Source: a virus. From it: a stretch of 21,991 nucleotides of DNA. The stretch is taken from IMG/VR virus record IMGVR_UViG_3300048445_000120, positions 1 through 21,991 of that record. The stretch is one strand, 5' to 3'. Of the stretch, positions 520-19,797 are shown in pieces. Position numbers and translations under genes: made by a program. The number at the start of each line of letters is the position of its first letter. The stretch's first letter is position 1. Below the pieces are notes generated by a model, which made no database searches, was not told the origin of the DNA, and saw only the letters and a program-made list of their open reading frames with translations.

Positions 520-3500
520 ATGGCTAGAATATCAACATACGTAAACGATACAACTATAAACGATGAAGATCTATTAACAGGATCTAATTTTATAAGGATA
601 GGCGAGTACAACACTCGTAATTACAAGTTAGTTGATCTAGCGGAGTACTTTGCTAATTTTCAAATATCCGACAATCAGTTATATAGTTTTGCTGCAATAA
701 GTCAGCAAGTTGAAACAAACGTTTCTGATATAGAGGCAAGCACCTTGTATTCACTTAACCTAGCATCCAGTTTTGGTACTGTTGATTCAAGTGGTAACCT
801 AACTAGCTTGTCACAAAGTTTCGCTAATCAAGTATTTACAACAACTAACAACGCTAGATTTGCAGAAGCAACCTATGTAACTAATTTAGGCTCTAGTTTT
901 GGTACTTTTGATGCGGACGGAAATTTAACTTCTCTTTCACAAGCATTTGCGGATAGTGTCATAACAACAACAGCTTCCAATAGGTTTGCTACAACCACAT
1001 CAGTAAATACACTAACGTCTACAGTTTCAGGAAAACCCGATATATTTAGGCAAAATGATGCCCCCGATGTAACAAACGCTGTAGGATCAATATGGTACGA
1101 TACGAATGATAATAATAAAGTTTACGTTTTAGTAGCAGGAACACCAAATGTATGGACCTTAACAGCGGACGACAGGATAATCACTAACTCGACGTCCATT
1201 TCTAACGTCAATCAGTCCGTTACAACATTGTCTAACTCTTTGGGTGCAGAAGCTGCATTAATTGACGAATTACAGACGCAATTTACGTTTGACACCAACG
1301 GGGGTATAACGGGGACAGCAGATGCGTTGGCAACGAGTATTACCACAGCATCGTCAAACGCAGCAGGAGCAGTAGCTACTGACCTAGATAAACTTGAGGC
1401 CGTATTTACATTCGATAGTAATAATGATGTTAGTGGTGTTGCGGGGGCGTTAAATACTTCAATTAATACAGCGGCCTCCACCGCTTCTAATGCAGTGGCC
1501 ACCGATTTAGATAAGTTAGAAACTGTATTTAGTTTTGATTCTAACGGGGATGTGGATGGAATACAAGGCACGCTAGCAACAGCAGTAACCTCCAATGCTA
1601 ATACAGCCATAAGCAATGCATCTTTAGCTTCAGCTTCTGAAGTGAACGAATTAAAGACACAATTTGTATTTGATAGTAATGGCAGTATTACAGGCGTGGC
1701 GGACGCACTATCAACGAGCATAACCAATACAGCGTCCAGTGAAGCAGGCTCGGTAGCAACAGATTTAGATAAATTAGAGGCTGTATTCAGCTTTGATAGT
1801 AATAATGATGTTGATGGTATTTCAGGTGCTTTATCAACCGCTGTAACAAGCAATGCAAACACTGCTATAACAAATGCGTCACTTGCCTCAGCCGCGGATG
1901 TTACAGAAATACAATCTCAATTTGCATTTACAAATGGCGAAATAACGGGTGTTGCGGATGCATTAGCAAGCAGTATTACTACAACAGCTTCTACAGAAGC
2001 AGGTTCAGTTGCGAGTGATCTTGATAAATTAGAAGCGGTATTCAGTTTTGACGCTAATGGAGATGTGGACGGCACAGCCGGCGCCTTGAGCACTGCGGTG
2101 GCATCTAGTGCAACTACAGCTATTGCTAATGCAAATTTAGCTTCTGCACAAAGTGTCACAGATTTAACTTCAACAGTTGATACAAAACCTCAAATATTTA
2201 GACAAGATGCAGAACCAGGAACAACAGGTGTACCAAATAATTCGTTGTGGTACGATACTAATGATAACAATAAATTATATGTATTAATAAGTAGCACTTG
2301 GACAGCTACAGTAGATGGAACCATTGCGGTTGCCCAATCAGCTGCAAATACAGCACAATCAACAGCGGACGGAAGGCCAAAAGTATTTAGACAAAATAAT
2401 GCACCAGCTACTAGCGAACCAGCGTCTTCCATATGGTACGATACTAACGATGACAATAAAATTTATATATTAGTTGGTACCACTTGGACCGCAACTGATG
2501 ATCCTCGAATTACAACTAATTCAGCCAATATATCCACACAACAAACAGTAGTAACTAGATTAGATGGCCATTCAAAAGCAGCTTATTCGCTAACGGCTAA
2601 TGCCAATAATGTGGTAACTGGCATGCAAATAATTGCGGCTAATAACCAAACGAGTAGTCTTTCAGAAATTAAATTTCAAGCAGATAAATTTATTGTAAAT
2701 TCATCCACAACAAATTTAACGCCTTTTAGCATATCAGGTGATAAAATAAAATTTAACGGAGATATAGATGTAACTGGTACAGCTTTAATACAAGGAACGG
2801 ATACCACCAGCAATGAGTTCACCGCGGTAAAAATAATCAACACAGGATCAACTAACGGTAAAGTTGGTATGAAATTACAAAACAGTTCTGGTTATTTTGC
2901 GCAGTTCTTTTTAGACACAACTACAGAAAATAATATAAATAATTACGGTTTTGATTTGCAATTAGGGCCAGCGTCTGGCGGAGGTGTAAATACTGTTGCC
3001 CATTTTAATGCGGGAGGATTATGTGTGCCGGCGGGTACAGGTACAACTGGAACTTATAACGGCAGAAGCATATTTTTTAATAGTGATAATGCTGCGGTGG
3101 ATTCAGATTCAGGTAGAATGCACGTAAACAACTACTTTAAAACTTTCTTTTTAGATATTCCTACACCTCGTACCGACGGTGATTGGGCAAACAAGGGGTT
3201 TGTTATGAGAAGATGGAATTCGGGGAATAGTTCTAGCGAGGAGATCTTATCTGTTAAAACGGTAACTAGAAGTTTACATGTTTTTGGAGATATAGTAGCC
3301 TCTGAAACATCTGATAAAAGATTAAAGAATAATATAAAGCCAATACAAAACGCTTGTGAAAAAATAAATAAAATAGGGGGTTATGAATTTGATTGGAACG
3401 ATAAACAAAAATTGTACGAAGGACATGATGTAGGCGTTATAGCTCAAGAAATTGAAGCTGTGCTGCCTGAGGTAGTTGAAACAAGAGAGGACGGTTATAA

Positions 3501-3588
3501 AGCTGTTGATTACAAAAAAATAGTACCATTACTTATAGAAGGTATAAAAGATTTACAAAAACAAATAGACGAATTAAAAAACAAATAA
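520..3588 (+). CDS. Tail tip/fibre protein with S74 chaperone C-terminus
   Basis: A 1022-aa virion appendage protein. Residues 1-45 (MARISTY start) match the start of the 233-aa protein at 8177 and look like a shared attachment domain. Residues 255-527 carry seven copies of an F-x-FD-x-N-x-(D/S/G)-(V/I)-x-G unit spaced 40-45 aa apart. Three FRQ..AP...(I/L)WYDTND modules occur near 173-219, 556-600 and 619-663. Residues about 685-755 read like the DUF1983 region of lambda gpJ-type tail tip proteins (GMQII, ADKF, GDKIKFNGDI). The C-terminal 92 residues are a peptidase S74 intramolecular chaperone: SDKRLK at 931-936 gives the Ser931/Lys936 dyad, followed by GVIAQE and a terminal coiled coil. S74 domains trimerise the fibre and cleave themselves off before that serine. 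A small protein follows after 1 bp. Confidence 0.9.
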   Translation: MARISTYVNDTTINDEDLLTGSNFIRIGEYNTRNYKLVDLAEYFANFQISDNQLYSFAAISQQVETNVSDIEASTLYSLNLASSFGTVDSSGNLTSLSQSFANQVFTTTNNARFAEATYVTNLGSSFGTFDADGNLTSLSQAFADSVITTTASNRFATTTSVNTLTSTVSGKPDIFRQNDAPDVTNAVGSIWYDTNDNNKVYVLVAGTPNVWTLTADDRIITNSTSISNVNQSVTTLSNSLGAEAALIDELQTQFTFDTNGGITGTADALATSITTASSNAAGAVATDLDKLEAVFTFDSNNDVSGVAGALNTSINTAASTASNAVATDLDKLETVFSFDSNGDVDGIQGTLATAVTSNANTAISNASLASASEVNELKTQFVFDSNGSITGVADALSTSITNTASSEAGSVATDLDKLEAVFSFDSNNDVDGISGALSTAVTSNANTAITNASLASAADVTEIQSQFAFTNGEITGVADALASSITTTASTEAGSVASDLDKLEAVFSFDANGDVDGTAGALSTAVASSATTAIANANLASAQSVTDLTSTVDTKPQIFRQDAEPGTTGVPNNSLWYDTNDNNKLYVLISSTWTATVDGTIAVAQSAANTAQSTADGRPKVFRQNNAPATSEPASSIWYDTNDDNKIYILVGTTWTATDDPRITTNSANISTQQTVVTRLDGHSKAAYSLTANANNVVTGMQIIAANNQTSSLSEIKFQADKFIVNSSTTNLTPFSISGDKIKFNGDIDVTGTALIQGTDTTSNEFTAVKIINTGSTNGKVGMKLQNSSGYFAQFFLDTTTENNINNYGFDLQLGPASGGGVNTVAHFNAGGLCVPAGTGTTGTYNGRSIFFNSDNAAVDSDSGRMHVNNYFKTFFLDIPTPRTDGDWANKGFVMRRWNSGNSSSEEILSVKTVTRSLHVFGDIVASETSDKRLKNNIKPIQNACEKINKIGGYEFDWNDKQKLYEGHDVGVIAQEIEAVLPEVVETREDGYKAVDYKKIVPLLIEGIKDLQKQIDELKNK
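1282..2100 (+). repeat. Seven-fold protein repeat in the 1022-aa fibre
   Basis: Seven copies of a roughly 20-residue unit begin at residues 255, 296, 337, 382, 423, 468 and 508. Odd and even spacers differ: some contain VATDLDKLE before the unit, others contain NASLASA. This suggests a higher-order repeat of about 86 aa made of two units. The DNA is less conserved than the protein, so the duplication is not recent. The pattern fits a fibrous shaft. The long antisense frame over the same DNA is a by-product of its repetitive codons. Confidence 0.8.
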
Positions 3589-3589
3589 T

Positions 3590-3937
3590 ATGGCAATAAC
3601 TTATAATTGGGACTGCAAAACATTGCAAGTTTATACTAGTCATACTGACTATAATGCTTCACCCATAACAAAAAACAATGTAGCATACGCGGTTATATGG
3701 GAATTAACAGGAACAAATGATGATGGTGTTTTTGCTACTATAGTTAGAAAAACTATTTTACCTATTAATGATTTATCTAGTTTTCAAGAAAAAAATGATT
3801 TAACTAATGAAATAGTTAAAGGCTGGGTGTTTAAAATAATAGGCCCAGATATGAAAGCGGCTTACGAAGCTGAAGTAGCCCATCTTGTCAATGAAAAAGT
3901 TTCCCCGACTGAAATAACAGTTATATTAGAATCGTAA
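3590..3937 (+). CDS. Small fibre-linked protein, paralogue of 18331 gene
   Basis: A 115-aa protein starting MAITYNWDCKTLQVY. It shares its architecture with the 112-aa protein at 18331: an (A-x-TY-x-W) start, a central (V/I)x-W strand, (I/V)-x-GW in the second half, then a Met-x-Ala-x-Y/G-x helix and a P-(T/I)-EIT ending. I recall this as a DUF7936-like family from cyanophages and other marine phages. The function is unknown. It starts 1 bp after the stop of the 1022-aa fibre, and its paralogue likewise follows the 900-aa S74 fibre by 1 bp. That suggests a fibre accessory, capping or assembly protein. No signal peptide or membrane segment. Confidence 0.75.
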   Translation: MAITYNWDCKTLQVYTSHTDYNASPITKNNVAYAVIWELTGTNDDGVFATIVRKTILPINDLSSFQEKNDLTNEIVKGWVFKIIGPDMKAAYEAEVAHLVNEKVSPTEITVILES

Positions 3938-4797: not shown

Positions 4798-6360
4798 ATG
4801 GAATATAATAACCCAAGTGAGATAGTAAAGGATCTGTCCTTCGGAACAGATGCTAGAACAAAAATAATGGTAGGTGTTGATAAATTAACTAAAGCAGTTA
4901 AATCAACCCTCGGCGCTTCTGGTAAATGTGTAATTTACGAGGACGCTCTCGGAAGGCCGGTGATAACAAAAGACGGAGTAACCGTTGCGGAAAGCGTAGT
5001 CTTAATTGACCCGGTCGAAAATATGGGAGCAACCCTTATAAAAGAAGCCGCCAAAAACACAGTGAAAGAAGCAGGTGACGGTACTACTACAGCTACCGTC
5101 CTTGCTCATTCGCTTTTGAATTTAGCTAATAAAGCAAAAGACAAAAACAATATAAGAGATATAAAGCAGGGGATAGAAACGGGATTAGAAAAAGTTAATA
5201 AAGAACTTACTGATAGAGCGGTTGACGTTAAAGGAGGCATGTTAGAAAATGTAAGTTCAATTAGTTGTAATAACGATAAAAGCCTCGGAAAGATTATATC
5301 GCAAGCATATTCGAAAGTGGGTAAGGACGGAGTAGTCCTTATGGAAGAGTCTGAGACCGAAAAAACAAATGTCGAATTTGTTGAAGGCACACAAATAGAT
5401 TGTGGGCTCAAATCGCCATACTTTGTAACAGATAAGGATAAAGGAAAAGCTGAACTAGATAACCCGTACGTAATGATAGTTTCTTCTCCAATCCCCAACA
5501 TTCGTAAAATTCAGAATGTACTAGAGTTTGTAATCAAAGAAAAAAGAAGTCTGCTTATTGTAGCGACCGTAGAACAGCAGCCATTAGCAGCATTGCTAGC
5601 AAATAAAGTTAAAGGCAATATAAAAGTCAATGTGATTGACCTCCCTGGTTTCGGGCCTACTAAACAGGACACAACTGAAGATCTTGCGATTCTTACCGGA
5701 GCAAAGGTAATAAACGAAGAGTTAGGAGATGATTTAGATTTAATTCAACCTGATATATTAGGGCAAGCAGCAAAGTCTGTTACAGACGATAAAAACACTG
5801 TTTTAACTATAATGGATCAAGGCCCTATTTTAAATGAAAGAATAGAACTGGTTGAAAACAAAATAAAAGAAGAAAAGAATCCCTACTTTAAGAAAAGGCT
5901 ACAGCAACGATTAGCAATGTTAAATGGATACGTTGCTATCATAAAAGTTGGTGCTAATTCAAAAGTTGAGTTAAAAGAAAAGAAAGATAGAGTTGAAGAT
6001 GCAATATATGCAACTAAAGCAGCATTACAAGAAGGTATTGTTCCGGGTGGTGGTGTGGCTTTGTTGGATGCATCGTATAGCATAATACCGGAAAACAACG
6101 GTGAGGCTATTTTACTGGAGGCAATTAAATCTCCATATGCGACTATACTTGAAAACGCAAATTTAGAATATAAAGAATCAGGGCACACGGGCAAAGGAAT
6201 AAATGTAATCAATGGGAAAGTTGTTGATATGATTGAAGAAGGCGTTATCGACCCTGTCCTTGTAACTAAAACAGCTCTTAAAAATGCAGTGAGTGTTGTT
6301 AATACTATTTTTTCTGCAGATTGTGTAATTAATAACATTCGATTAAATGAAAGCAATTAA
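4798..6360 (+). CDS. groEL: Phage-encoded chaperonin GroEL (Cpn60)
   Basis: A 520-aa group I chaperonin, full length except that the usual GGM-repeat tail is absent (it ends NNIRLNESN). ATP-site motifs are intact: TKDGV at 58-62, DGTTTATV at 94-101, VEDA with Asp401, GGGVAL at 418-422 region and DP at 485-486. The apical domain (about 200-370) keeps the SPYF segment (206-209), Leu242, Leu263 and GFG (284-286). Compared with E. coli substrate/GroES-binding positions, Tyr199 is Leu204, Leu234 is Gln239 and Val264 is Ala268. It should form an ATP-driven folding ring with the co-chaperonin encoded immediately downstream. The order groEL-groES is the reverse of the usual bacterial operon. Context in a structural-gene block argues for a phage folding system for capsid or fibre subunits. 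Confidence 0.96.
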   Translation: MEYNNPSEIVKDLSFGTDARTKIMVGVDKLTKAVKSTLGASGKCVIYEDALGRPVITKDGVTVAESVVLIDPVENMGATLIKEAAKNTVKEAGDGTTTATVLAHSLLNLANKAKDKNNIRDIKQGIETGLEKVNKELTDRAVDVKGGMLENVSSISCNNDKSLGKIISQAYSKVGKDGVVLMEESETEKTNVEFVEGTQIDCGLKSPYFVTDKDKGKAELDNPYVMIVSSPIPNIRKIQNVLEFVIKEKRSLLIVATVEQQPLAALLANKVKGNIKVNVIDLPGFGPTKQDTTEDLAILTGAKVINEELGDDLDLIQPDILGQAAKSVTDDKNTVLTIMDQGPILNERIELVENKIKEEKNPYFKKRLQQRLAMLNGYVAIIKVGANSKVELKEKKDRVEDAIYATKAALQEGIVPGGGVALLDASYSIIPENNGEAILLEAIKSPYATILENANLEYKESGHTGKGINVINGKVVDMIEEGVIDPVLVTKTALKNAVSVVNTIFSADCVINNIRLNESN

Positions 6361-6604
6361 TTATTACGTTGTTATAGAAAAAATAAAAGAAGCGCCGAAG
6401 AAAGTAGGTGGCTTGGAGCTTACAGAAGATCAAAATAAAGACGTTAGGTATTTAAAAGGTAAAGTTATATCTGCTGGCAATTTAGTAGAAAACCTTAATG
6501 TAAATGATATAGTACATTATGACAAAATGGCGGGGCACGGAATAGAATGGAAAGATAAGTTGTATTACGTTTTAAAACTTGCGGATATAGTACTTGTGGA
6601 ATGA
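6347..6604 (+). CDS. groES: Phage-encoded co-chaperonin GroES (Cpn10)
   Basis: An 85-aa Cpn10, shorter than the usual 95-97 aa. It shows the core strands in order: YYVVIEK near the start, KGKVISAG in the middle, NVNDIVHYDKMAG (the GDIVIF strand equivalent) and YYVLKLADIVLVE at the end. The mobile loop is about residues 16-34, with GGLELTED replacing the E. coli GGIVLTG; the GroEL-contact tripeptide is thus LEL, with a charged middle residue. The gene starts inside groEL (14-nt overlap), so the two are translationally coupled and probably made in a fixed ratio. The stop overlaps the next start as ATGA. The roof and base loops look shortened. Confidence 0.9.
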   Translation: MKAINYYVVIEKIKEAPKKVGGLELTEDQNKDVRYLKGKVISAGNLVENLNVNDIVHYDKMAGHGIEWKDKLYYVLKLADIVLVE

Positions 6605-7041
6605 GAATAGGTGCTGATGACATAAAAGATTTAAATTTACTAAAATATTATAGGCTCATTCGAAAATGGGCCTGTAAAACTTATAGCCTAAAAGATGCTG
6701 ATCTTGAATTGCTAATTTATTTAGATTGCAAAGATAGATTTACACGTAATGAATTTATTAATGGTGTGTATACCTACAGCTGGGATAAAGACAGGTGGGA
6801 GAGATTAAGAAGAGAGGGCTGGATTGATGTTTGGAGAGAAAGAAATCGTATTACTCAAAAATACACAATATATAAAACAAGTTTTAAATGTAAGCAATTA
6901 ATTAAACGAATATATCGTATAATGCTTGCGGAAGAAGACTTGCCAACAAGTAAACGAAGTAAATTTTTTAATAACCGATCGTATACAGATAAAGTTTATA
7001 ATAAAGCTATAGATGATATGATCAAAGATAAAAACAGATAG
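6601..7041 (+). CDS. MarR/winged-helix-like phage protein
   Basis: A 146-aa basic protein. Helical N-terminus (LLKYYRLIRKWA), a LELLIYLD helix, an F-x-R-x-EF segment, then a recognition-helix-like W-x2-DRW-x2-LRREGWI followed by a beta wing (RNRITQKYTIY) and a C-terminal helix. That order resembles MarR-type winged helix-turn-helix proteins annotated in many marine phages. No acidic catalytic cluster is visible, so an enzyme is unlikely. It may bind DNA as a late regulator or be a virion DNA-binding protein; the sequence does not decide. It overlaps groES by 4 nt (ATGA), tying it to the chaperonin operon. Confidence 0.65.
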   Translation: MRIGADDIKDLNLLKYYRLIRKWACKTYSLKDADLELLIYLDCKDRFTRNEFINGVYTYSWDKDRWERLRREGWIDVWRERNRITQKYTIYKTSFKCKQLIKRIYRIMLAEEDLPTSKRSKFFNNRSYTDKVYNKAIDDMIKDKNR

Positions 7042-7043
7042 TT

Positions 7044-7142
7044 ATGCCAAAAGTAGGAAAAAAGAAGTTTGCTTATACCGCAAAAGGTAAAGCAGCTGCA
7101 AAAAAATACGCGAAGAAAACGGGTAAAAAAATGTCTAAATAA
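7044..7142 (+). CDS. Tiny basic phage protein, 32 aa
   Basis: The start ATG lies 2 bp after the previous stop. The product begins MPKVGKKKFAYTAKGKAAAK and ends KKMSK; it is nearly all Lys, Ala, Gly and Tyr. I recall near-identical 30-35 aa proteins (MPKVG-KKF-YT-KGK) in many marine and cyanobacterial phages, which supports a real gene despite its size. Function unknown; the charge suggests nucleic-acid or virion-DNA contact. A different frame crosses this region and could be miscalled as an N-terminal extension of the next gene. Confidence 0.75.
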   Translation: MPKVGKKKFAYTAKGKAAAKKYAKKTGKKMSK

Positions 7143-7149
7143 TATTGAG

Positions 7150-7260
7150 ATGAAAAAAAAATTAACTGCTAATCAACTTAGAATAGCTAAAATGGCACCA
7201 CCATATAATTCAATTACTGGTGCTGATTTTGCTAAATTAAGAAAGAAAAAGAAAAAATAG
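7150..7260 (+). CDS. Tiny basic phage protein, 36 aa
   Basis: This starts at MKKKLTANQLRIAKMAPPYN and ends in a run of lysines. A longer frame reaches back to an ATG at 7069, but that extension runs through the well-supported 32-aa gene in another frame, so the ATG at 7150 (7 bp after the previous stop) is preferred. The APPYN-x-ITGADFAKL segment looks specific rather than low-complexity. Small basic protein of unknown function, one of a run of four before the holin. Confidence 0.7.
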   Translation: MKKKLTANQLRIAKMAPPYNSITGADFAKLRKKKKK

Positions 7261-7262
7261 TT

Positions 7263-7550
7263 ATGCCAAGCAAAAATGCACCATCAAGAAAAAAATCTTT
7301 AGGTTACTATAAAAAAGTAAATAAAAAAGGTGGCACTGGTAAAAAAGCTGGTGGCGGAATGACTGCTAAAGGTGTAGCTAAATACAGAAGAGATAACCCA
7401 GGCAGCAAACTTAAAACAGCCGTAACAACTCCACCTTCTAAATTAAAGAAAGGAAGCAAAGCTGCTAAAAGACGTAAATCATTTTGTGCAAGATCAAAAG
7501 GATGGAAATCTGAAAGGGGTAGAGCCGCTAGAAGAAAATGGAACTGTTAA
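7263..7550 (+). CDS. Basic phage protein with KRRKSFCARSKG motif
   Basis: A 95-aa, very basic protein. The N-terminal half is Lys/Gly-rich with a KGVAKYRRDNPGSKLKTAV segment. The C-terminal half has GSKAAKRRKSFCARSKGWK and ends RRKWNC. The K-x-RKSFCAR core with a terminal Cys is a pattern I recall from many phage proteins next to tail or lysis genes. Cysteines at the motif and at the very C-terminus could bind metal or form a disulphide. It starts 2 bp after the previous stop, and the next start directly follows its stop. Role unknown; DNA binding or condensation is inference. Confidence 0.8.
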   Translation: MPSKNAPSRKKSLGYYKKVNKKGGTGKKAGGGMTAKGVAKYRRDNPGSKLKTAVTTPPSKLKKGSKAAKRRKSFCARSKGWKSERGRAARRKWNC

Positions 7551-7715
7551 ATGGAAAGTAGAGGGTTAGGAGATTCAATAGCGAAGTTTACTAAAGCTAC
7601 AGGTATAAAACGTGTAGTTGATAAAGTATCGTCTGGTTTAAACATACCTTGTGGTTGTGAGGCTAGACAGAATGCGTTGAATAAAATTGTCCCATATAAA
7701 ATGAAAAAAAGATGA
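7551..7715 (+). CDS. Small conserved-type phage protein, 54 aa
   Basis: A 54-aa protein read from the ATG directly after the previous stop, ending ATGA-overlapped with the holin start. It begins MESRGLGDSIAKFTKATGIK, continues with VVDKVSSG and has a CGCEARQNALNK-x-VPYK end. The GLGD-x-I-x-K-x-TKATGIK ... CGC-x-RQ-x-LN pattern matches small proteins I recall from marine phages beside the 3-TM holin. The Cys-x-Cys pair may bind metal. Too short for usual cut-offs but strongly supported by context and perfect gene packing. Confidence 0.8.
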   Translation: MESRGLGDSIAKFTKATGIKRVVDKVSSGLNIPCGCEARQNALNKIVPYKMKKR

Positions 7716-8173
7716 GTAAACCAAAAAAGAAATTTGCAGAAACTACTGTAGGTAAACTTTTGTTTGGTGCAGCTTCATTAGTTAACCCTACTTTGGGTAA
7801 TTTAATTAGTGGTGCTTCAACCCCAGCAGAGGCTATAGCGGCAATAGGTAAATCCGATGTTAGCAGCGAAGATAAAATAAAATTACAGCAACTTATATTT
7901 GAACAACAAAATAAAGAAATGGAAAGCATCACCTCAAGGTGGGAGGCGGATTCCATGTCAGATTCCTGGCTTTCGAAAAATGTACGCCCGCTAGTTTTAG
8001 TGTGGTGTATTGTTATATTTTCATTAGCGGGGATATTGGATAGTGTTGAATCAATACCATTCCATATAGGTGAAACATGGAACGATACTTTTGAAAAAGT
8101 TATGATGAGTGTTGTTTTGGCATATTTTGGTGGACGAAGTGGAGAAAAAGCTGCAAGTTTATTAAAAAAGTAA
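7712..8173 (+). CDS. Holin of the GTA_holin_3TM type
   Basis: A 153-aa membrane protein. A glycine-rich hydrophobic segment lies at about 16-36, followed by an acidic/glutamine-rich linker, then the family signature RWEADSMSDSWLSKNVRP at 76-93. Transmembrane segments follow at about 92-110 (LVLVWCIVIFSLAGI) and 127-141 (VMMSVVLAYFGG), and the end is RSGEKAASLLKK. This matches the three-TM holin family first named from gene transfer agents. It should permeabilise the inner membrane to release an endolysin or trigger lysis. No endolysin is present in the window. It overlaps the upstream 54-aa gene by 4 nt and precedes the second MARISTY gene by 3 bp. Confidence 0.85.
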   Translation: MSKPKKKFAETTVGKLLFGAASLVNPTLGNLISGASTPAEAIAAIGKSDVSSEDKIKLQQLIFEQQNKEMESITSRWEADSMSDSWLSKNVRPLVLVWCIVIFSLAGILDSVESIPFHIGETWNDTFEKVMMSVVLAYFGGRSGEKAASLLKK

Positions 8174-8176
8174 TAC

Positions 8177-8878
8177 ATGGCTAGAATTAGTACATATAAT
8201 TTAGACAATACCGTTTCTAAAAACGATAAAGTTATAGGAACAGATTCCTCAGGGAATGGTACTAAAAATTTTAAACTAGAAAATATTGTAGGGTTTTTAA
8301 ATACTTCAGGCCTAATTAATTTAAACGGGGTAGTAAATAAATTCACGCCACAGGGTGGAAGCTTATTGTCAGGACATTTTAAATTACCTTCAGGCGGAAC
8401 AGGGGTTGCTTTTGATTCAATAACATCTTTGAAAGTTTCTATAAATAACTTGGATAATTTAAACATGGTTGAGTTCTATAATCATTTAGTAGATCAAGGA
8501 TTGAAAATATCTAACGTTGATAATATAAGTGAATTTGGCCATTATGCTTTTATAAGCGCAGTCCAAGCTAACCCATCAGATAATTTTTTAACATTTAACT
8601 TAGGTTATTTAAATGGCAATGGTACTTTAAGGGATGATAAATATTATTTATTTAATCTAGATAACTCAGGTAGAACAGATAAAAATTTTATTACATCTAA
8701 TATTAATTTCATTGCTAATTCAACTCAAACAATAGCCCACAATTTAGGTAAGTTCCCATCTGTAACAACAGTTGATTCAGCGGGATCTCATATAGTGGGC
8801 GACATTCAACATATAGACAACAATAATTTCACTATAACATTTAAAGCCTCATTTCAAGGTAAAGTATACGTAAACTAA
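8177..8878 (+). CDS. Tail fibre protein sharing the MARISTY N-terminus
   Basis: A 233-aa tail protein. Residues 1-40 share their pattern with the 1022-aa protein at 520: MARISTY, then D-T, and an (N/T)-x-(N)-(Y/F)-KL segment. The middle is beta-rich, and residues about 172-233 form a terminal module with IAHNLGKFPSV-TTVDSAG, VGDI-x-HIDNNN-TITF and GKVYVN, a common end of phage fibre or tail proteins. There is no S74 domain. Probable role: a short fibre or plug docking on the same site as the larger protein. The start follows the holin stop closely, with no Shine-Dalgarno sequence. Confidence 0.75.
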   Translation: MARISTYNLDNTVSKNDKVIGTDSSGNGTKNFKLENIVGFLNTSGLINLNGVVNKFTPQGGSLLSGHFKLPSGGTGVAFDSITSLKVSINNLDNLNMVEFYNHLVDQGLKISNVDNISEFGHYAFISAVQANPSDNFLTFNLGYLNGNGTLRDDKYYLFNLDNSGRTDKNFITSNINFIANSTQTIAHNLGKFPSVTTVDSAGSHIVGDIQHIDNNNFTITFKASFQGKVYVN

Positions 8879-8884
8879 TAAACT

Positions 8885-9883
8885 ATGGCACTCTCATATT
8901 TAACAGATATTAATTTAAACAAAAACGAATTACAAAATGCGGTAATTCAGAAACTAGCCACTGACCCGTCGTCCGGGCAAACCGCGGGTTGGATAATATA
9001 TAATACGTCAGACAACCAATTAAAAGTTTACGATGGTTCAAATTGGACCAATGTAGGTGGTGACATAACTGGCGTTAATATAACAGCTGGAACTGGATTA
9101 ACAGGAACAGTAAGCACAACATCCGGGCAACACACTCAAACAATTGATTTAGCTGACACAACGGTAACGGCTGGTTCGTATGGTTCTGCCACAGCGATAC
9201 CAACATTTACTGTAGATGCACAAGGTAGATTAACGGCAGCTGGAACCGCTTCAATTAGTACAGATTTAACAATTGCAGCAGATAGTGGGTCTGATGATGT
9301 TGTTTCAGTTGGAACTGACACTTTAACATTTTCTGGAACTGCAAACGAAATTGATACTGCAGTAAGTAATAATGAAATAACAATTGGATTAGTTGCAAAC
9401 CCGACGGTTTCTGGTAACTTAATAGTTTCTGGAAATTTAACAGTATCGGGCACAACAACAACTGTAAATACAGAAACAATAAATCTTGCTGATAATATAA
9501 TTACTTTAAATAGTAATGAAGCAGGCACCCCAAGTGAAAATGCAGGTATTGAAGTTGAAAGAGGAACTTCAGATAATGTAGTATTTAGGTGGAATGAAGG
9601 TACAGATATTTGGGAACTTACTAAAGATGGAACTAACTACTACGAAGTACAGACTGTTGGTGAAAGCACTTATGCAACATCAATAGGTGATGGGTCCGCA
9701 ACTTCTTACACTGTAACACACAATTTAGGTTCTCAGGATGTAATTGTGCAGCTTTACGACAATAGTTCATTAGATACAGTTTACGCAGACGTAGTAAGAA
9801 CATCTACATCAGTTGTAACAATTGATTTCAACTCTGCACCAACAACAAACGATATTAGAGTACTTATTACAAAAATAGGTTAA
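8885..9883 (+). CDS. Tail fibre protein, 332 aa
   Basis: A 332-aa beta-rich fibre protein. The N-terminus (MALSYLTDINLNKNELQNAV) is followed by a WIIYNTSDNQLKVYDGSNW module. A TVTAGSYGSATAIPTFTVDA plus QGRLTAAGTAS segment comes next, then GNL-VSGNLTVSGTTTTVN and an ENAGIEVERG...FRWNEGTD-WELT module. The C-terminus (about 260-332) is a VTHNLGSQDVIVQLYD domain ending RVLITK. All are familiar phage fibre modules. No S74 domain. It probably forms part of a tail fibre built with the following large proteins. Confidence 0.85.
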   Translation: MALSYLTDINLNKNELQNAVIQKLATDPSSGQTAGWIIYNTSDNQLKVYDGSNWTNVGGDITGVNITAGTGLTGTVSTTSGQHTQTIDLADTTVTAGSYGSATAIPTFTVDAQGRLTAAGTASISTDLTIAADSGSDDVVSVGTDTLTFSGTANEIDTAVSNNEITIGLVANPTVSGNLIVSGNLTVSGTTTTVNTETINLADNIITLNSNEAGTPSENAGIEVERGTSDNVVFRWNEGTDIWELTKDGTNYYEVQTVGESTYATSIGDGSATSYTVTHNLGSQDVIVQLYDNSSLDTVYADVVRTSTSVVTIDFNSAPTTNDIRVLITKIG

Positions 9884-9903
9884 TATAATTTTATAAATTT
9901 AAT

Positions 9904-12900
9904 ATGGCAAATCGCTTTCTTAGTAATATAAGAATTAACGACGCGTATACTTTCCCAGCGTCAGATGGTAGCAGTGGACAAGTTATCACAACTGATGGTT
10001 CTGGTAATTTATCTTTTTCGGAAGCTGGAACAAGTGATGCAGCCTCTGTAATTTATAGAGATAATTTCACTGGAGATGGGAGTACGGTGTCATTTGATTT
10101 ACAAAATTCAATTACTGATGAAGACCAAACACAAATATATATAGATGGTGTTTATCAAGAAAAAGACACGTATTCCGTATCGGGATCAACAATAACCTTT
10201 ACAACTGCACCAATTAGTGGTCACAGCATAGAGGTTATTTCTATTTCAGCTATAAACACAGGGCCTACGATTATTTATCAAGATAATTTTACAGGCAACG
10301 GCTCAGCAACAGATTTTACGTTAGCAAACGCTATAGACAATGAAGTTAAAACTTTAATATTTTTAAATGGTGTTTATCAATTTAAAAATACTTACAGCGT
10401 TGACTCAACTACACTTAGTTTTGATGCAGCTCCAGCGAATGGAGTGGACATAGAGGTTATCAGTATTGCTTCAGCTACGCAAGCAGACAGTTTACAAGCT
10501 GGTTCTGTAATTGTGCCTGTAAAAAATACACATAATGCAAGCATATCAAAAGGAACTCCAGTATACATTAGCGGTAACGTTGGTAATTCAGCAAGATTAC
10601 AAATAGCACCAGCAGACGCAAGCAATAGTGCTAAAATGCCAGCAGCAGGATTGTTACTAACTACGCTTGCTGTAAATGCAGAAGGCTATGCAATTACAGG
10701 CGGCTATTTAAGAAACATTACAACAGACACAATTGATGGCACAAGCACAACATCAAACGATACTGTATATGTAAAAGCTGGTGGTGGTTTAACAATGACA
10801 AAACCAACTGGTAGCAATTTAATCCAAAACATTGCTAAAATTGCAAGATCCTCTAGTGGCAATTCAGGTTCGTTATTGGTATCATCAATACTTAGAACAA
10901 ACGATATTCCCAATATTGCTAACGATCATTTTTGGTTAGGTAATTCTTCTAGTGTGGCAACGGCTACATCATTTCCAACAGAAGTTGGTAATTATTTAAC
11001 AACAAACAGCTACGCAACAGAAAACTATGTAGATACAGAAGTTGCAGGGTTAGTTGCTTCGGCTCCTACAACGTTAGATACCTTAAATGAACTAGCGGCA
11101 GCATTAGGTGATGATCCTAACTTTGCCACAACTACAGCTAATAGCATTGGCACTAAACTCCCTTTGGCTGGTGGTACATTAACTGGAGGATTGACGGGAA
11201 CAAATGCAACTTTTAATGGTCAATTAACTGTAAATCCTAACGCAACTACAAGTGTAAGAATTGGTACCGGAGGAACAAATGCAGGTTTAGTATTTGGAGC
11301 AGTAGGGGATGAGCTTTATATAGGCGCAAACAATACTCATCAAATTAGGTGTAAAACTAATAATGATGTAGAATTTGTTGCCAACGCAACTTTTGCAGGT
11401 AATATAACTGTTAATAAAACTACAGGTGTTGCAATAGCTGATATAATAAGTGGAGATAATTATTCTGTTCTTACTTTACAAGGCGGACAAACTGGAGATG
11501 CTGCAAATGGTTTTGGTATTTATTCAGGTTATCCATCAGCAGGAGATTTTACCATACGAGAAAATGGAGTTGCTAATTACTTAACAATAGCCAAAACAAC
11601 TGGTAACGCAACTTTTGCAGGAGCAATAACAATATCTAAAACTTCAAGTGCAGATTTAAGATTACATTCATCAACATATTCTGCTGATTTTAATTTAATA
11701 AGTGGTGCAACTGGCGCAAATAAACTTGGTATATATGACAATAATGGAGGTGCATATAGGTTAATTATAGACAGTTCTGGAAACATAGGAATCGGGACGA
11801 CTCCAAAAGCTTGGACAACTGCAGGCGGAACTAAAGCCTTGCAAATTTCTACAAGAGCTGCTTTGTGGGAAGCCTATAATGGAACATACCTATCTAATAA
11901 TATGTATTATGATGGTGGTGAAAAATACATAGAATCAGATGAAGCTGCACAAATATCTCTTGGTGGAGATGGTACAATATATTTTCGAAATGCTGTAAGT
12001 GGTACTGCGGATGCAGCACTTACTTGGAACGAAAGAATGCGTATAGACAGTTCTGGAAACGTAGGAATTGGAATAACTAACCCTGACTACAAATTAGATG
12101 TAGCTGGTAACTTCAGAATAAATGAAGGTAGCGCCTTTACAGATCTTGACATTAAATCTGATAGAACAAGCGGTAACATTGGTGGTGTAAATTTTGTAAA
12201 TGCGTCTGATGCGATCAAAGGTCAGATATATGGACACACCGATGGCTCTGTTAAGATAGGAACAGGAGGAACAAGTGTCGCAATGGTTTTAGACAGTTCA
12301 GGAAACGTAGGAATTGGGACGACTACGCCTTCAAGTTTACTTCATTTAGAATCAACTACAGGTAGTGTTTTAACTCTTGAAAGAAATGATACTTATTTAG
12401 GTGCGGGGAATGTTATCGGTGATATAAATTTTGATGCAAATGTGACAGGAACAACTATTGCTTCAATAAAGGCTCGTGCATCAGAAACTGGAACAACAAA
12501 AACTTATTTACGATTTGATACTAACGATGGTTCTTCTACAGCAGAAAGAATGCGTATAACATCTGGGGGTAATGTAGAAATTGCATCTGGAGGAAAATTA
12601 ACTTTAAATAATACAAGTGGTAATAATTGGAGTTTTTTAAGTTTTACTAACGGTAGTTTATTTTTACAAATAGGAGCAGCAAATTTAGGAAGATTTGATG
12701 GAACTTCAGGGGCATATACTGCTATGTCAGATGTTAATAAAAAGAAAGATTTTGAAGATTCTAAAATAGGTTTAAAAGAAGTTATGGAATTACAACCTAA
12801 ACTTTATAGAATGAAAGAAGATGCTGAAAATTCAGATAAATTATTAGGATTTATTGCACAAGAAGTAAAAGAATCTATACCTCAAGCGTATGTAGAAAGT

Positions 12901-13032
12901 GGAGCAGATGATAATAAATTTATAGGTTTAAATCAAATGCCAATAATAGCAGCTTTAACAAAATCAATACAAGAACTAAAAGCAGATAACGATAGCTTAA
13001 AAGCTAGAATAGAAACGTTAGAAAATAATTAA
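9904..13032 (+). CDS. Large tail fibre with divergent S74 chaperone
   Basis: A 1042-aa modular fibre. Residues 46-117 and 121-192 are a tandem duplication of a beta domain (IY-DNFTG-GS, GVYQ-K-TYSV, IEVISI). Residues about 200-345 form another fibre module (SKGTPVYISGNVG, GYAITGGYLRNI). A TLNELAAALGDD segment at about 393-404 is shared with the 775-aa protein. The shaft then repeats ERMRI-SSGNVGIG units. The last 101 residues are S74-like: SDVNKK at 942-947 keeps Ser942 and Lys947 of the self-cleavage dyad, but the usual Arg-Leu is replaced by Asn-Lys. GFIAQEV and a terminal coiled coil are intact. The next fibre starts 1 bp after the stop. Confidence 0.9.
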   Translation: MANRFLSNIRINDAYTFPASDGSSGQVITTDGSGNLSFSEAGTSDAASVIYRDNFTGDGSTVSFDLQNSITDEDQTQIYIDGVYQEKDTYSVSGSTITFTTAPISGHSIEVISISAINTGPTIIYQDNFTGNGSATDFTLANAIDNEVKTLIFLNGVYQFKNTYSVDSTTLSFDAAPANGVDIEVISIASATQADSLQAGSVIVPVKNTHNASISKGTPVYISGNVGNSARLQIAPADASNSAKMPAAGLLLTTLAVNAEGYAITGGYLRNITTDTIDGTSTTSNDTVYVKAGGGLTMTKPTGSNLIQNIAKIARSSSGNSGSLLVSSILRTNDIPNIANDHFWLGNSSSVATATSFPTEVGNYLTTNSYATENYVDTEVAGLVASAPTTLDTLNELAAALGDDPNFATTTANSIGTKLPLAGGTLTGGLTGTNATFNGQLTVNPNATTSVRIGTGGTNAGLVFGAVGDELYIGANNTHQIRCKTNNDVEFVANATFAGNITVNKTTGVAIADIISGDNYSVLTLQGGQTGDAANGFGIYSGYPSAGDFTIRENGVANYLTIAKTTGNATFAGAITISKTSSADLRLHSSTYSADFNLISGATGANKLGIYDNNGGAYRLIIDSSGNIGIGTTPKAWTTAGGTKALQISTRAALWEAYNGTYLSNNMYYDGGEKYIESDEAAQISLGGDGTIYFRNAVSGTADAALTWNERMRIDSSGNVGIGITNPDYKLDVAGNFRINEGSAFTDLDIKSDRTSGNIGGVNFVNASDAIKGQIYGHTDGSVKIGTGGTSVAMVLDSSGNVGIGTTTPSSLLHLESTTGSVLTLERNDTYLGAGNVIGDINFDANVTGTTIASIKARASETGTTKTYLRFDTNDGSSTAERMRITSGGNVEIASGGKLTLNNTSGNNWSFLSFTNGSLFLQIGAANLGRFDGTSGAYTAMSDVNKKKDFEDSKIGLKEVMELQPKLYRMKEDAENSDKLLGFIAQEVKESIPQAYVESGADDNKFIGLNQMPIIAALTKSIQELKADNDSLKARIETLENN
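10039..10479 (+). repeat. Tandem beta-domain duplication in the 1042-aa fibre
   Basis: Two adjacent copies of about 72 residues (46-117 and 121-192) align at DNFTG-GS, a D/A-x-T-x-I/L-x-x-(D/N)GVYQ turn, TYSV and IEVIS(I). The DNA has diverged, so this is an old duplication. Such repeats are common in fibre shafts. Confidence 0.75.
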
Positions 13033-13033
13033 T

Positions 13034-15361
13034 ATGGCACAAACTAAAGTAAAACTTATATCAGACGGGGTAATAGTCCAGGGTAATTTGCATGTTAGCC
13101 ACGGTATCACAACTGCTGATATTGGTGAAGGCAGTAACTTGTATTATACAGACGCTAGAGTAGGTTCTTACTTATCAACAAATAGTTTTGCTACAGAAAG
13201 CTATGTAGGCACACAAATAGCTAATTTAGTTGATTCGTCGCCTTCAGCGCTTAATACACTAAATGAATTAGCTGCAGCACTTGGTGATGACGCAAACTTT
13301 AGTACAACAGTTACCAATTCGATTGCATTGAAAGCACCGTTAGCTTCACCTAGTTTTACGGGTAATGTCGGAATCGGAACAAATTCGCCAAGTGCTACAT
13401 TACAAGTTAATGGTAATACAAACTTTGGTAATGCCGCCCAACCAGCAAATACTTCTAATTATATTAATAACTTTAATAACGACTTAGCTTTATTAATTAA
13501 AAAAATAAGCACAGGAGTTGGTGATTATTTAAGTATTCAAGACAGTACTGGAAGTTCTAAGTTTATAGTAAAAAGCGACGGCAACGTAGGAATTAATGCA
13601 TCAGCTTCATTAAGATTTAATAGCGCAGGGGATAATACTCACGCCGTAGGTTATGATTCAACTGTTGATGGTTCTTTCTTACGAGGTCAAAACGGAATAA
13701 GATTTTTAACTGGCACAGGAGGTGGTTCAGAAAGAATGCGTATAACGTCTGCAGGAAACGTAGGAATAGGAGTTGCGCCAAGCAACACACAAGCAATTAC
13801 TACGCAAATAACCAATGGTTTAAGTTTATTTGGCAATAACTCAACACCTTACGGATTCATAAGTAACAATCATGCTTGGACTAGTCCAGGTGGTGATCAA
13901 TATTTAGTTAGTAATTATGGTGCTTCATATTACAAACAGTACGAAGGAGCTCATAGTTGGGCTACAGCGCCTTCTGGGGCTGCAGGAAGCACCGCAACTT
14001 TTACCACTAGAATGACTATTCTTTCTGGCGGTAACGTAGGAATTGGTGTTACTGGGCCCAGTGCTAAATTACACGTAGTGGATGGCAATAATTATGCAAA
14101 ACTAGGTGATTTACATGGTAATTCTACCATGTCATTGAGAATGGCTGACAACTCGGGGTTTCCAGTTGAAGTACAGGCTTATGGCACTGAATTAAGATTT
14201 AATACCGCCACTACCACTGGAGCAACGCCAAGTGTTAAAATGAATATTCTTTCCAATGGAAACGTAGGAATCGGAACGACTTCGCCTGCTGCCACATTAG
14301 ATGTTGATGATGACAATACTGGAAAAATAAGACTATTAAGAAATGGTTCTACCAGAGTAGAATTAAGTAACAATGCAAACGAAGGTGAACTTTCTTTATA
14401 TCGTTCAAGTACCGCAAAAACCATATATATTTCTTCATATTATGATAGTTATTTTAATGGAGGAAACGTCGGGATTGGAGAAACATCCCCTAGCGATAAA
14501 CTTCATGTTAGTGGTGGGAATGTTAGAATATACTCTACTAATAACGCAAACCATTTAATACTTAAAAACAATGCAACTGGAACAAGTGGTGTTTTTGAAG
14601 AAAGAATAAAATTTTTAGGATGGAATGATAATGAGAACGCATCTATTATAGCTAAAGGTAACGCCTATTTTGGTTCCCCTGTTAACGCTTTGGCTTTTTC
14701 AGTTTCTGCTGTAGAGGCAATGAGAATTAAACATGGAGGAAATGTTGGGATCGGGACGACAAACGCAGATTCAAAATTAAAAGTAGAAGCTAAAAATGCT
14801 TCAAATGTTATTTACGCAGGGTTTAGAGTTGGTTATAATGCAACTTCAAATAATTATTACGATGCAGATACCCACCATTTTAGATTAGGAACCGGGAGTA
14901 GCGCGGGAGGAAATTTATATGTTGGTGGCGGCGTTTACTTAGGTGGAACCGCAGCTGCTAATAAATTAGACGACTACGAAGAAGGAACTTGGACACCAAC
15001 ATCTAATCTACCAGGTGCGACTGTATCTTCTTATGGTAAATACACTAAGATTGGCAACATTGTGTATATTGCAGGTAAAATTGATTTTACAGGTAAAACC
15101 GGTACCGCTGTTAATGTTGTTATAGAGGGCCTACCCTTTAGTGGATCGAATACGGCTGATGCACAAACAAGACCCAGTGCTTTTCCCGAAGGGGATTTAG
15201 TAAATATGGCTACTTTAGTAAATAACTATGGACACTTTAGGGTTAATAGCAATCAAATGCAAGGGGTTATTGTTAGTAATGGTAATACTATTTACATGAG
15301 TTCAAATAATTTTAGCTCCTCAGGTCAATTTAATTTTAGTGTTGTATATACAGCCACTTAA
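13034..15361 (+). CDS. Tail fibre protein with receptor-type C-terminus, no S74
   Basis: A 775-aa fibre. The N-terminus has an EGSNLYYTDARVGSYLST segment, partly shared with the 900-aa protein, then TLNELAAALGDD as in the 1042-aa protein. The shaft has repeated GNVGIG-T-P units, with ERMRI at about residues 233-237. Near residues 637-653 a GGTAAANKLDDYEEGTWTPT segment introduces a terminal beta domain of about 125 residues (YGKYTKIGNIVYIAGKIDF, LPFSGS). This ending is known from fibres and knobs that touch receptors. There is no S74 chaperone and no terminal coiled coil, unlike its neighbours, so folding may depend on another protein. An 81-aa gene follows after 18 bp. Confidence 0.88.
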   Translation: MAQTKVKLISDGVIVQGNLHVSHGITTADIGEGSNLYYTDARVGSYLSTNSFATESYVGTQIANLVDSSPSALNTLNELAAALGDDANFSTTVTNSIALKAPLASPSFTGNVGIGTNSPSATLQVNGNTNFGNAAQPANTSNYINNFNNDLALLIKKISTGVGDYLSIQDSTGSSKFIVKSDGNVGINASASLRFNSAGDNTHAVGYDSTVDGSFLRGQNGIRFLTGTGGGSERMRITSAGNVGIGVAPSNTQAITTQITNGLSLFGNNSTPYGFISNNHAWTSPGGDQYLVSNYGASYYKQYEGAHSWATAPSGAAGSTATFTTRMTILSGGNVGIGVTGPSAKLHVVDGNNYAKLGDLHGNSTMSLRMADNSGFPVEVQAYGTELRFNTATTTGATPSVKMNILSNGNVGIGTTSPAATLDVDDDNTGKIRLLRNGSTRVELSNNANEGELSLYRSSTAKTIYISSYYDSYFNGGNVGIGETSPSDKLHVSGGNVRIYSTNNANHLILKNNATGTSGVFEERIKFLGWNDNENASIIAKGNAYFGSPVNALAFSVSAVEAMRIKHGGNVGIGTTNADSKLKVEAKNASNVIYAGFRVGYNATSNNYYDADTHHFRLGTGSSAGGNLYVGGGVYLGGTAAANKLDDYEEGTWTPTSNLPGATVSSYGKYTKIGNIVYIAGKIDFTGKTGTAVNVVIEGLPFSGSNTADAQTRPSAFPEGDLVNMATLVNNYGHFRVNSNQMQGVIVSNGNTIYMSSNNFSSSGQFNFSVVYTAT

Positions 15362-15379
15362 TAAAAAAAAATAAATAAA

Positions 15380-15625
15380 ATGAGTCTATCAAAACAAAAA
15401 ATCCAAGACAAAATTGAAATAGTTAGCGAATTCAAACATATTCAAATTAGATATTCAGATCAAATAATTGAAGATGGTAAGGTTATATCAAGCTCATACT
15501 ACAGAGACATGGTAACTTGTGGTGACGATGCAAAAGCTATTGAACATAATGTAAAAGCTTTAGCTGATATATACTGGACAGATGAAATAAAAGCAGCATA
15601 CCAAGCGAGTTTAGAAATAGAATAA
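15380..15625 (+). CDS. Small fibre-linked protein, 81 aa
   Basis: An 81-aa soluble protein: MSLSKQKIQDKIEIV start, a beta hairpin with IQIRYSDQIIEDGKVISSSYYR, then a helical end (AIEHNVKALADIYWTDEIKAAYQ). I recall this family (LSK-KI-DKIE...IEDGKVIS) as short genes beside fibre genes in marine phages; the function is not known to me. It sits between two large fibres, 18 bp after the first and 1 bp before the second, as with the small proteins at 3590 and 18331. A role in fibre assembly or as a fibre-base component is inference. Confidence 0.7.
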   Translation: MSLSKQKIQDKIEIVSEFKHIQIRYSDQIIEDGKVISSSYYRDMVTCGDDAKAIEHNVKALADIYWTDEIKAAYQASLEIE

Positions 15626-15626
15626 T

Positions 15627-18329: not shown

Positions 18330-18330
18330 A

Positions 18331-18669
18331 ATGGCAAACACTTACAAATGGACGATTAATGCGTTAGACGCAAAAGTCGCAGTAGAAGACGGCAACGAAA
18401 ACGTTGTCTACACAGTACATTGGAGCTATAGCGCTACTGATGAAACTGAAGAACACTCAGCAAGTTCTATTGGAACTTACGGAGTAGAATATGATGCAGC
18501 TAACTTCACAGCTTACGCAGATCTTACAGAAGAACAAGTAATCGGGTGGCTAGAAGCAGGATTGGATGTTGAATCAATGAAGGCTGGCTTAGATAGCCAA
18601 ATTGAAAAATTGATTACACCAATTGAAATAACTTTTCGCGCACCTTTTCCCCCGTCTGCTGAAGAATAA
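18331..18669 (+). CDS. Small fibre-linked protein, paralogue of 3590 gene
   Basis: A 112-aa, acidic protein starting MANTYKWTINALDAKVAVED, with a VVYTVHWSYSATD strand, a TAYADLTEEQVIGWLEAGL segment and TPIEITFRAPFPPSAEE at the end. This is a closer match than its paralogue to the cyanophage/marine phage family I recall as DUF7936. Its GC content looks higher than that of the adjoining fibre. It directly follows an S74 fibre, as the paralogue does. The function is unknown; a fibre accessory role is inference. A 75-bp non-coding gap follows. Confidence 0.8.
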   Translation: MANTYKWTINALDAKVAVEDGNENVVYTVHWSYSATDETEEHSASSIGTYGVEYDAANFTAYADLTEEQVIGWLEAGLDVESMKAGLDSQIEKLITPIEITFRAPFPPSAEE

Positions 18670-19002: not shown

Positions 19003-19204
19003 AATAAGTATAGGCAGAGACTATAAGAACGACGCTATGCACTATGCAGTTGGCCAAGAAGTATATGGCGGCCATAAAATATGCAATATAATAGAGGAGT
19101 CCGACAAGTTTTCTATTTTCATACAAAAAGGAAAAGAAGTGTTGCCGTGGAAAGACTTTAATAAAAATATGGCTATAGCTGTAGAATACAATTTAGAATA
19201 TTAA
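18986..19204 (+). CDS. Short phage protein, 72 aa, start corrected
   Basis: A 72-aa protein from MSLVRKISIGRDYKNDAMHY, with VGQEVYGGHKICNI, an aromatic strand (KFSIFIQKG), LPWKDFNKN and an AVEYNLEY end. A longer frame starts at 18950, but its first 12 residues are low-complexity and overlap the upstream gene by 53 nt, while the VRKISIG-x-DYKN-AMHY start matches the small family I recall. Hence the ATG at 18986 is preferred. All-beta, soluble, unknown function. Its stop overlaps the next start by one base. Confidence 0.65.
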   Translation: MSLVRKISIGRDYKNDAMHYAVGQEVYGGHKICNIIEESDKFSIFIQKGKEVLPWKDFNKNMAIAVEYNLEY

Positions 19205-19797
19205 TGCAAAGTTTATTTGATTTTATTATAAAACCAAAAAACAAAAGATACGATAATAAAAAATATATAGATGGTCAAGAGCTTTTAGTTAATACTGAAA
19301 TCTCTGATCATCGATATGTTAGTCGTATTGGAATAGTTTTAGGAGTACCAAAACTTGAAGAAACAGAAATACAAATTGGAGACGAAGTTATCGTGCACCA
19401 TAATGTATTCAGAAGATGGTACGATCAACATGGTAAAGAGCGAAATACCCGAAGCCATTATAAAGAAGATTTATATTTTGTAAAATCAGATCAAATATAC
19501 TTATATAAACGAAATAACGAATGGAATGCTCCTAAAGGCTTTTGCTTCGTTAAACCAATCCAATCTACTAATATATTAAATAACGAAAAGGAACAAGCCC
19601 TAAGGGGTATTATAAAATATGTTGACAAAGACATTAGCAGTTTAATAGAAAAAGAAGATTTAATTGGATTTACGCCAAGCAGTGAATATGAATTCATTGT
19701 GGACAGCGAAAGAATGTATAGAGTACTAACTAATTCAATATCTATTAAATATGAACGTCAAGGAAACGAAAAAGAATATAATCCAAGCTGGTTATGA
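19204..19797 (+). CDS. Tandem GroES-like-fold protein, function unknown
   Basis: A 197-aa protein that reads as two successive Cpn10-like halves. Half 1 (about 20-103): ELLVN, RIGIVLGVP (41-49), IGDEVIVHHN (58-67), DLYFVKSDQIYLYK (89-102). Half 2 (about 112-184): GFCFVKPI, RGIIKYVD (134-141), KEDLIGFTP (150-158), MYRVLTNSISIK (171-182). Each half follows the GroES strand order (V-V-K; GEVLAVG; VGDIVIF; LIM-ESDILA). Neither half has an obvious GroEL-binding mobile loop with a hydrophobic tripeptide. A conserved-looking tail (YERQGNEKEYNPSWL) ends the protein. The fold is inference from sequence pattern only. Its place just before the terminase genes may mean a virion, assembly or packaging role. 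The gene overlaps the next one by 47 nt. Confidence 0.7.
   Translation: MQSLFDFIIKPKNKRYDNKKYIDGQELLVNTEISDHRYVSRIGIVLGVPKLEETEIQIGDEVIVHHNVFRRWYDQHGKERNTRSHYKEDLYFVKSDQIYLYKRNNEWNAPKGFCFVKPIQSTNILNNEKEQALRGIIKYVDKDISSLIEKEDLIGFTPSSEYEFIVDSERMYRVLTNSISIKYERQGNEKEYNPSWL

Follow-up and report, generated by a model that had tools for sequence, protein, structure and literature searches.

Chaperonin genes and a predicted tandem co-chaperonin in a lineage of Bacteroidota podoviruses

What would a podovirus do with a chaperonin of its own, and with which partner would this chaperonin close its folding chamber? The stretch of DNA considered here (the window), a complete 21,991-base record of a marine virus, raises these questions through two overlapping genes on its forward strand. 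The first, groEL (4798–6360), is an open reading frame with family matches that encodes a group I chaperonin of 520 residues (56.2 kDa) without a GGM tail. The second, groES (6347–6604), likewise open and with family matches, encodes a single-domain co-chaperonin of 85 residues with a short roof loop. The two share 14 nucleotides, read from the sequence as ATGAAAGCAATTAA (6347–6360), and the groES stop codon contains the start (ATGA) of a third gene on the same strand (6601–7041), whose 146-residue product has a predicted winged-helix fold of the MarR type. This arrangement, groEL before groES with a 14-nucleotide overlap and an ATGA junction into a winged-helix-like gene, is as the initial annotation had described it.

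The window GroEL matches the Pfam family Cpn60_TCP1 over residues 30–513 (3.6e-53), the Cpn60 domain extending over the full length, as well as PHROG 5725 (3.8e-136) and GroELs of the PDB (down to 1.7e-116). The GroES matches Pfam Cpn10 (6.5e-10) and PHROG 3188. The model of the winged-helix protein (pLDDT 81.7) had 5hli_A as best match in Foldseek (E-value 5.5e-3, probability 1.00) and 2a61_A in VIA (Z-score 9.2, rmsd 4.2, 112 aligned residues); since several MarR chains tie, the assignment is one of fold and not of function. A relative with 29% identity is found in the phage Panino (L082:9077-9580), on the opposite strand and about 1 kb downstream of the Cpn10 gene. Small and very basic proteins of 32, 36, 95 and 76 residues are encoded at 7044–7550 and 280–510, ORF 7263–7550 matching DUF6321 (1.2e-12), and a holin-like gene, recognized by family matches, lies downstream of the chaperonin block on the forward strand (7712–8173). 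The chaperonin pair adjoins lysis, fibre and packaging genes, all on one strand, a position that would fit late expression; groEL and groES would be read from one message, with their overlapping frames probably coupled in translation.

In an IMG/VR scan, at least 588 stretches were found to encode relatives of the window GroEL, and we used the best 80 of these (67–99% GroEL identity) for comparison of gene order. All 80 have groES immediately after groEL on the same strand, and the two genes overlap by 1–31 nucleotides, most frequently by 14 (n=44), followed by 17 (n=10), 4 (n=10), 1 (n=8), 26 (n=4), 23 (n=2) and 31 (n=2), and 77 of the 80 also contain a relative of the winged-helix gene. In contrast, groES is upstream of groEL in all 54 bacterial loci, a set from which the phage-like copies in MAG bins (L185, L187-L189, L191-L196, L226) and L181 were excluded. 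The expectation that phages of this kind reverse the usual bacterial order is thus confirmed. Further, groEL precedes groES in elemoF (overlap of one nucleotide) and in Manatee (MW202828), and in Panino a 44-residue ORF separates groEL from the Cpn10 gene that follows it. Calle_1 and phi38:1 have groES, one ORF and then groEL; a single flip of the order inside the lineage would be the simplest history. Taken alone, the reversal is a curiosity. That few phages possess both genes is true of the annotated phage records, where 269 of 50,697 had any GroEL match, bacterial-looking contigs included; the IMG/VR stretches with relatives nevertheless number at least 588. Two loci have irregular reading frames: in the long IMG/VR record G090, the groEL and groES matches at 10123–11931 are spread over several frames with internal stops, through error or decay, and in G072 groEL is split between two frames.

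To compare individual residues, we used host sequences from which phage-type GroELs of MAG bins (the eleven copies named above, L185 to L226) had been removed. D52, D87 and D398, which we take to be the ATPase residues of GroEL, are kept in 81 of 81 phage GroELs, the viral set being the best 80 of at least 588 loci. Three apical hydrophobic positions are presumed to bind GroES (L234, L237, V264), the first of which we assume to contact substrate as well; in the phage GroELs, L237 is kept in 81/81, L234 is replaced by Q in 81/81 and position 264 is occupied by A, M, T or S. The tails contain GG in one and are G/M-rich in none of the 81, versus 50 of 55 bacterial rows. The charge pair D83–K327 is swapped (K/R with D/E) in 63 of 81, which suggests a long separate evolution under constraint. 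R452, S463 and V464, presumably inter-ring contacts, are not kept in the window GroEL, and because these positions differ the protein could form a single ring. Judged by these sequence features, the pair would constitute a functional group I chaperonin in an old lineage of Bacteroidota podoviruses, and this forms part of the explanation that we favor.

The co-chaperonin differs from bacterial ones as well. Within its Cpn10 domain, the mobile loop of the window GroES reads GGLEL versus GGIVL, and the roof segment comprises 7–8 residues in 57 of 57 phage rows, versus 16 in E. coli and 10–16 in 25 bacterial rows, which leave out the phage-type MAG copies and L181. A roof loop is not required of every co-chaperonin. 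In T4, gp31 has no roof loops and is reported to form a chamber about 8% larger than that with GroES (PMC6318259, available text), and by analogy the short roof segment may reasonably be read as giving room to a large coat protein. Like gp31 and CocO of RB49, the window GroES is thus a phage co-chaperonin with a short or absent roof loop, and like these the co-chaperonins of phage phi18:3 occur without a phage GroEL. Unlike the single-domain gp31, they have a second, tandem partner, and the window has a GroEL besides.

This second partner had been overlooked. The chaperonin set had been taken for a pair, and groEL and groES are indeed both present, but a further co-chaperonin candidate of 197 residues is encoded on the forward strand at 19204–19797, one small ORF away from its constant neighbor terL (terminase large subunit, 20020–21991, forward strand, cut by the window end). 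Over residues 1–179 it matches PHROG 13932, ‘co-chaperonin GroES’ (1.2e-18); a Pfam search with the window protein gave no Cpn10 match. An AlphaFold model from 33 sequences (pLDDT 77.9, pTM 0.72) predicts a single chain with two consecutive Cpn10 folds in head-to-tail order. Its best match among solved structures is algal Cpn20 (7ekq_R; Foldseek E-value 2.2e-4, probability 1.00), to which VIA aligned 158 residues over model positions 1–184 (Z-score 9.6, rmsd 3.9). Taken singly, the first half (1–105) is most similar to the Cpn10 4pj1_U (Z-score 7.9, rmsd 2.6, 83 aligned residues) and the second (106–185) to 4pkn_W (Z-score 8.1, rmsd 2.2, 78 aligned residues).

At the level of sequence, profile comparisons of the two window halves with groES were weak (probability 28 and 1) and the halves also bear only a weak likeness to each other. 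In relatives, the second half matches Pfam Cpn10 in phi18:3 (8.5e-8) and Calle_1 (2.2e-6), and the first half matches PHROG 3188 in elemoF (3e-4). A 187-residue protein of the distant Flavobacterium phage MaF61, encoded directly before groEL (L254:912-1475), contains two Pfam Cpn10 stretches (3.2e-16). The N-terminal half has a hydrophobic L-I-L loop motif, whose counterpart in GroES is GGIVL, with L27 conserved in 31, I or L at position 28 in 32 and L29 in 31 of 33 sequences; in the C-terminal half, the alignment of the window clade has no conserved tripeptide of a GroEL-binding loop. Plant Cpn20 presumably has this loop in both halves. Since the second half lacks a conserved binding loop, we call the phage protein Cpn20-like in fold and not Cpn20.

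How widespread is the tandem gene, and what accompanies it? In the phage collection, 87 records share the terminase (a search with the portal also gave 87), and 85 of them have the tandem gene: 77 match the window version and eight more, all Pachyviridae, the phi18:3 version. The search with the latter gave a ninth record, MW202828, which was already among the 77. Two Gundel records match neither version, and a profile search of Gundel_1 detected no Cpn10 and no Cpn60. In IMG/VR, 407 stretches encode relatives of the tandem protein. We further inspected 22 long IMG/VR records (49.7–68.9 kb), 15 chosen via groEL and 7 via the tandem gene; all 22 carry the tandem gene and 20 carry groEL and groES. 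One record with the tandem gene and no groEL, G086, is a fragment, since its ends flank exactly the missing stretch; the other such record, G089, may be one too. Among 198 Bacteroidota genomes there was one match to the tandem protein, in a MAG whose contig (C28) also carries a phage-type groEL.

In all seven lineage representatives (window, elemoF, Panino, Manatee, Calle_1, phi18:3, MaF61), the tandem protein co-occurs with a single Cpn10. In Cellulophaga phage phi18:3, whose complete genome has 71,443 bases, both co-chaperonins are present (tandem and single, L268:5459-6061 and L271:2109-2363) and no GroEL was found; because the genome lacks one, they would need the host GroEL as partner. 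phi14:2 has a GroEL, and no Cpn10 was detected in it by profile. The tandem gene lies immediately before terL or one small ORF away in the window, MW202828, Panino, elemoF, Calle_1, phi38:1 and phi18:3. In the window it is 12.6 kb from groES, and in all lineages examined it adjoins terL and not groEL, save in MaF61. The latter has another Cpn10 match at record position 91662–91916 and a divergent groEL; relatives of its tandem protein were not found in IMG/VR, and the phage collection gave MaF61 itself only. One candidate rule, that the tandem protein always occurs with a phage GroEL, seemed true in 77 records and is ruled out by phi18:3 and the eight Pachyviridae records. The pattern was misleading because the window query missed the divergent Pachyviridae copies.

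Parts of this system have been described before. Cultured marine podoviruses of Bacteroidetes/Flavobacteriia (Cellulophaga phages phi38:1 and Calle, Elemovirus, Maribacter phage Panino) share with the window the terminase family, GroEL, and both the single and the tandem Cpn10; Calle and phi38:1 differ in having groES, one ORF and groEL far from terL. According to the accessible text of the respective papers, GroEL occurs in 36 of 78 group-2 genomes of phi38:1-like marine phages (Nishimura 2017, PMC5332604), a ‘chaperonin cpn10’ belongs to the core of Pervagoviridae (PMC8776804, Table 2) and GroEL/GroES have been published for Panino (PMC11590407). In GenBank the tandem gene is annotated as ‘chaperonin cpn10’ or ‘co-chaperonin GroES’, and the accessible part of the open-licence PMC literature yielded no description of a tandem phage co-chaperonin. 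GroEL in such phages has therefore been known since at least 2017 and the new part is the tandem co-chaperonin.

We favor, as a whole, the explanation that these genes encode a phage chaperonin with a mixed lid of single and double units that folds head proteins, and consider the chances that it is right to be about even. ATP would drive the GroEL ring and the lid would close it; the lid would probably be composed of the single Cpn10 of groES and the tandem Cpn10 encoded next to terL, for instance of seven units, three doubles plus one single, as in chloroplasts. Abundant head proteins of about 50 kDa, folded during assembly, appear as the likeliest client, because the tandem gene is constantly near the terL, portal and capsid genes and because the capsid candidate of Calle_1 has 49 kDa. 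The co-occurrence of single and double co-chaperonins in seven lineages, in which GroEL is optional, suggests that the lid proteins work with each other first. Their partner would be the host GroEL in phi18:3 and a phage-encoded GroEL in the other lineages.

In chloroplasts, a double Cpn20 operates alongside a single Cpn10, and the native lid is believed to be a seven-unit ring containing both (PMC5780408, available text). Reviews, in their available portions, treat tandem co-chaperonins as a peculiarity of chloroplasts and apicoplasts and describe a symmetry puzzle, even units on a seven-fold ring. The phage proteins resemble the Cpn20 of these organelles in placing two Cpn10 folds, predicted in the phage case, head to tail beside a single Cpn10; they differ in that the structural alignment has 11% identity, the second half has no conserved loop and the gene lies beside terL. 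That a mixed lid (e.g. 1 + 3×2 = 7) evolved convergently with chloroplast Cpn10/Cpn20, the two-part lid acting first on host GroEL and the phage GroEL being added later, is a tentative proposal, to which we give somewhat less than even chances. Several observations weigh against a mixed lid: the tandem gene is remote from groES, the window protein has no Pfam Cpn10 match and low profile scores of its halves against groES, its second half lacks the conserved binding loop, and the presence of both Cpn10 genes in phi18:3 without GroEL means that the tandem protein is not tied to a phage GroEL. The giant phages EL, OBP and AR9 also encode GroEL-like chaperonins, which reportedly function without any co-chaperonin (PMC9598537, available text), whereas in the window lineage groES overlaps groEL in 80 of 80 loci (best 80 of at least 588).

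Could GroEL and GroES be an ordinary pair, and the tandem protein a head or packaging factor that shares no more than the fold and occupies what is frequently the slot of the small terminase? The constant position before terL in the seven phages listed above fits this, as do the presence of the tandem protein in phi18:3 without GroEL and its unconserved second loop in the window clade. However, the tandem protein never occurs without a single Cpn10 in the seven lineages tested, in MaF61 a protein that clearly contains two Cpn10 stretches is encoded next to groEL, and the record of phi18:3 labels virion proteins by MS/MS but the tandem protein by similarity only. We therefore regard this alternative as serious but rather unlikely.

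Might the chaperonin mainly support the host cell during infection, for instance in the cold or as a substitute for the host GroEL? General chaperonins are promiscuous, and the phage GroEL keeps the ATPase residues that were checked, both of which would suit such a role. The genes are nevertheless located among late-type genes, and the uniform exchange of L234 for Q together with the differing lid fits a specialized client or lid and not a copy of the host protein, so that a supporting role seems improbable.

The initial annotation had proposed that the chaperonin folds the long fibres, whose genes flank groEL and groES in the window. This is not supported. Compared to two close relatives (L003 and L004), GroEL is 97% and GroES 93–95% identical, yet the fibre genes are largely replaced: for the fibre encoded at 520–3588 the alignment covers only 303 of 1022 residues, and ORF 8177 is 44–45% identical. 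G086 has an identical tandem protein and 99% identity in TerL, with 63–64% in ORFs 8177 and 8885 and short matches only to the long fibres. If the chaperonin were dedicated to these fibres, one would expect the two to vary together. The window fibres are also large (81–108 kDa), and three carry an S74 self-chaperone domain at their end; T4 gp23, at roughly 56 kDa, is described as already slightly oversize for GroEL-GroES (PMC6318259, available text). Among the best 80 of at least 588 loci, 56 contain no ORF of 600 or more residues other than groEL, though many of these loci are incomplete. We rate a dedicated fibre chaperonin as still more improbable than support of the host; promiscuous folding of fibres by the phage chaperonin may occur.

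The fibre genes have features of their own. The region that swaps fibres spans 8177–18669 of the window in comparisons with the near-identical phages L262 (tandem Cpn10 100% and TerL 99% identical) and L003 (GroEL 97%), whose fibre genes there have strongly diverged or been replaced. Two DUF7936 genes (Pfam PF25590), at 3590–3937 (1.3e-8) and 18331–18669 (8.4e-26), each start one base past the stop of an S74-tipped fibre gene (520–3588 and 15627–18329, respectively), and their product is possibly a fibre partner or chaperone. The fibre encoded at 520–3588 and ORF 8177–8878, compared at 520–700 and 8177–8300, resemble each other in their first residues, both starting with MARISTY, and may have an attachment domain in common.

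To place the window GroEL among its relatives, we computed a careful tree of 57 GroELs, which leaves out the long-branched EL, AR9, MaF61, Mx1 and L181 together with every second viral row and four surplus MAG sequences; a wider tree includes them, with EL and AR9 on very long branches. The window clade (25 rows) has a support of 100/99 and the 18 bacterial rows form a separate group. phi14:2, Calle_1/phi38:1, Panino, elemoF and Manatee (MW202828) fall on the window-clade side of a 100/97 branch, their exact places being unsure because some branches are long. The window GroEL is only 35–39% identical to those of the cultured phages named earlier (phi38:1, Calle, Elemovirus, Panino), compared to 67–99% for the 80 IMG/VR loci (best 80 of at least 588), and it is 40–46% identical to full-length GroELs of Bacteroidota hosts, the sole row at 48% being a fragment. 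Vibrio phage GroELs adjoin E. coli and that of DAC16 lies among Bacteroidota; judging from the tree, capture from hosts occurs in other phages and not in the window lineage. The alternative to an old phage lineage, a recent bacterial capture or a misassembled bacterial fragment, has the captured look of these other phages in its favor and is practically negligible here, since capture is ruled out by the separate 100/99 clade and the host identities of 40–48%, and misassembly by the same arrangement in all 80 loci (best 80 of at least 588) and in the complete circular genome of MW202828.

A scan of bacterial and archaeal genomes gave seven relatives of the window GroEL, all on MAG contigs, which probably are most simply explained as phage contigs binned with bacteria. 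GroELs of or near the phage clade (L172-L178) are found on MAG contigs named Maricaulis, Alphaproteobacteria, Sphingobacteriales, Euryarchaeota, Rickettsiales and others. Such mis-binned contigs are a trap for host assignment based on GroEL. A phage family that retains both a single and a double Cpn10, be it with a GroEL of its own or without, would offer small, genetically separate systems in which to ask why a double unit helps, and whether the choice of capsid proteins to be folded is made by the lid or by the barrel.
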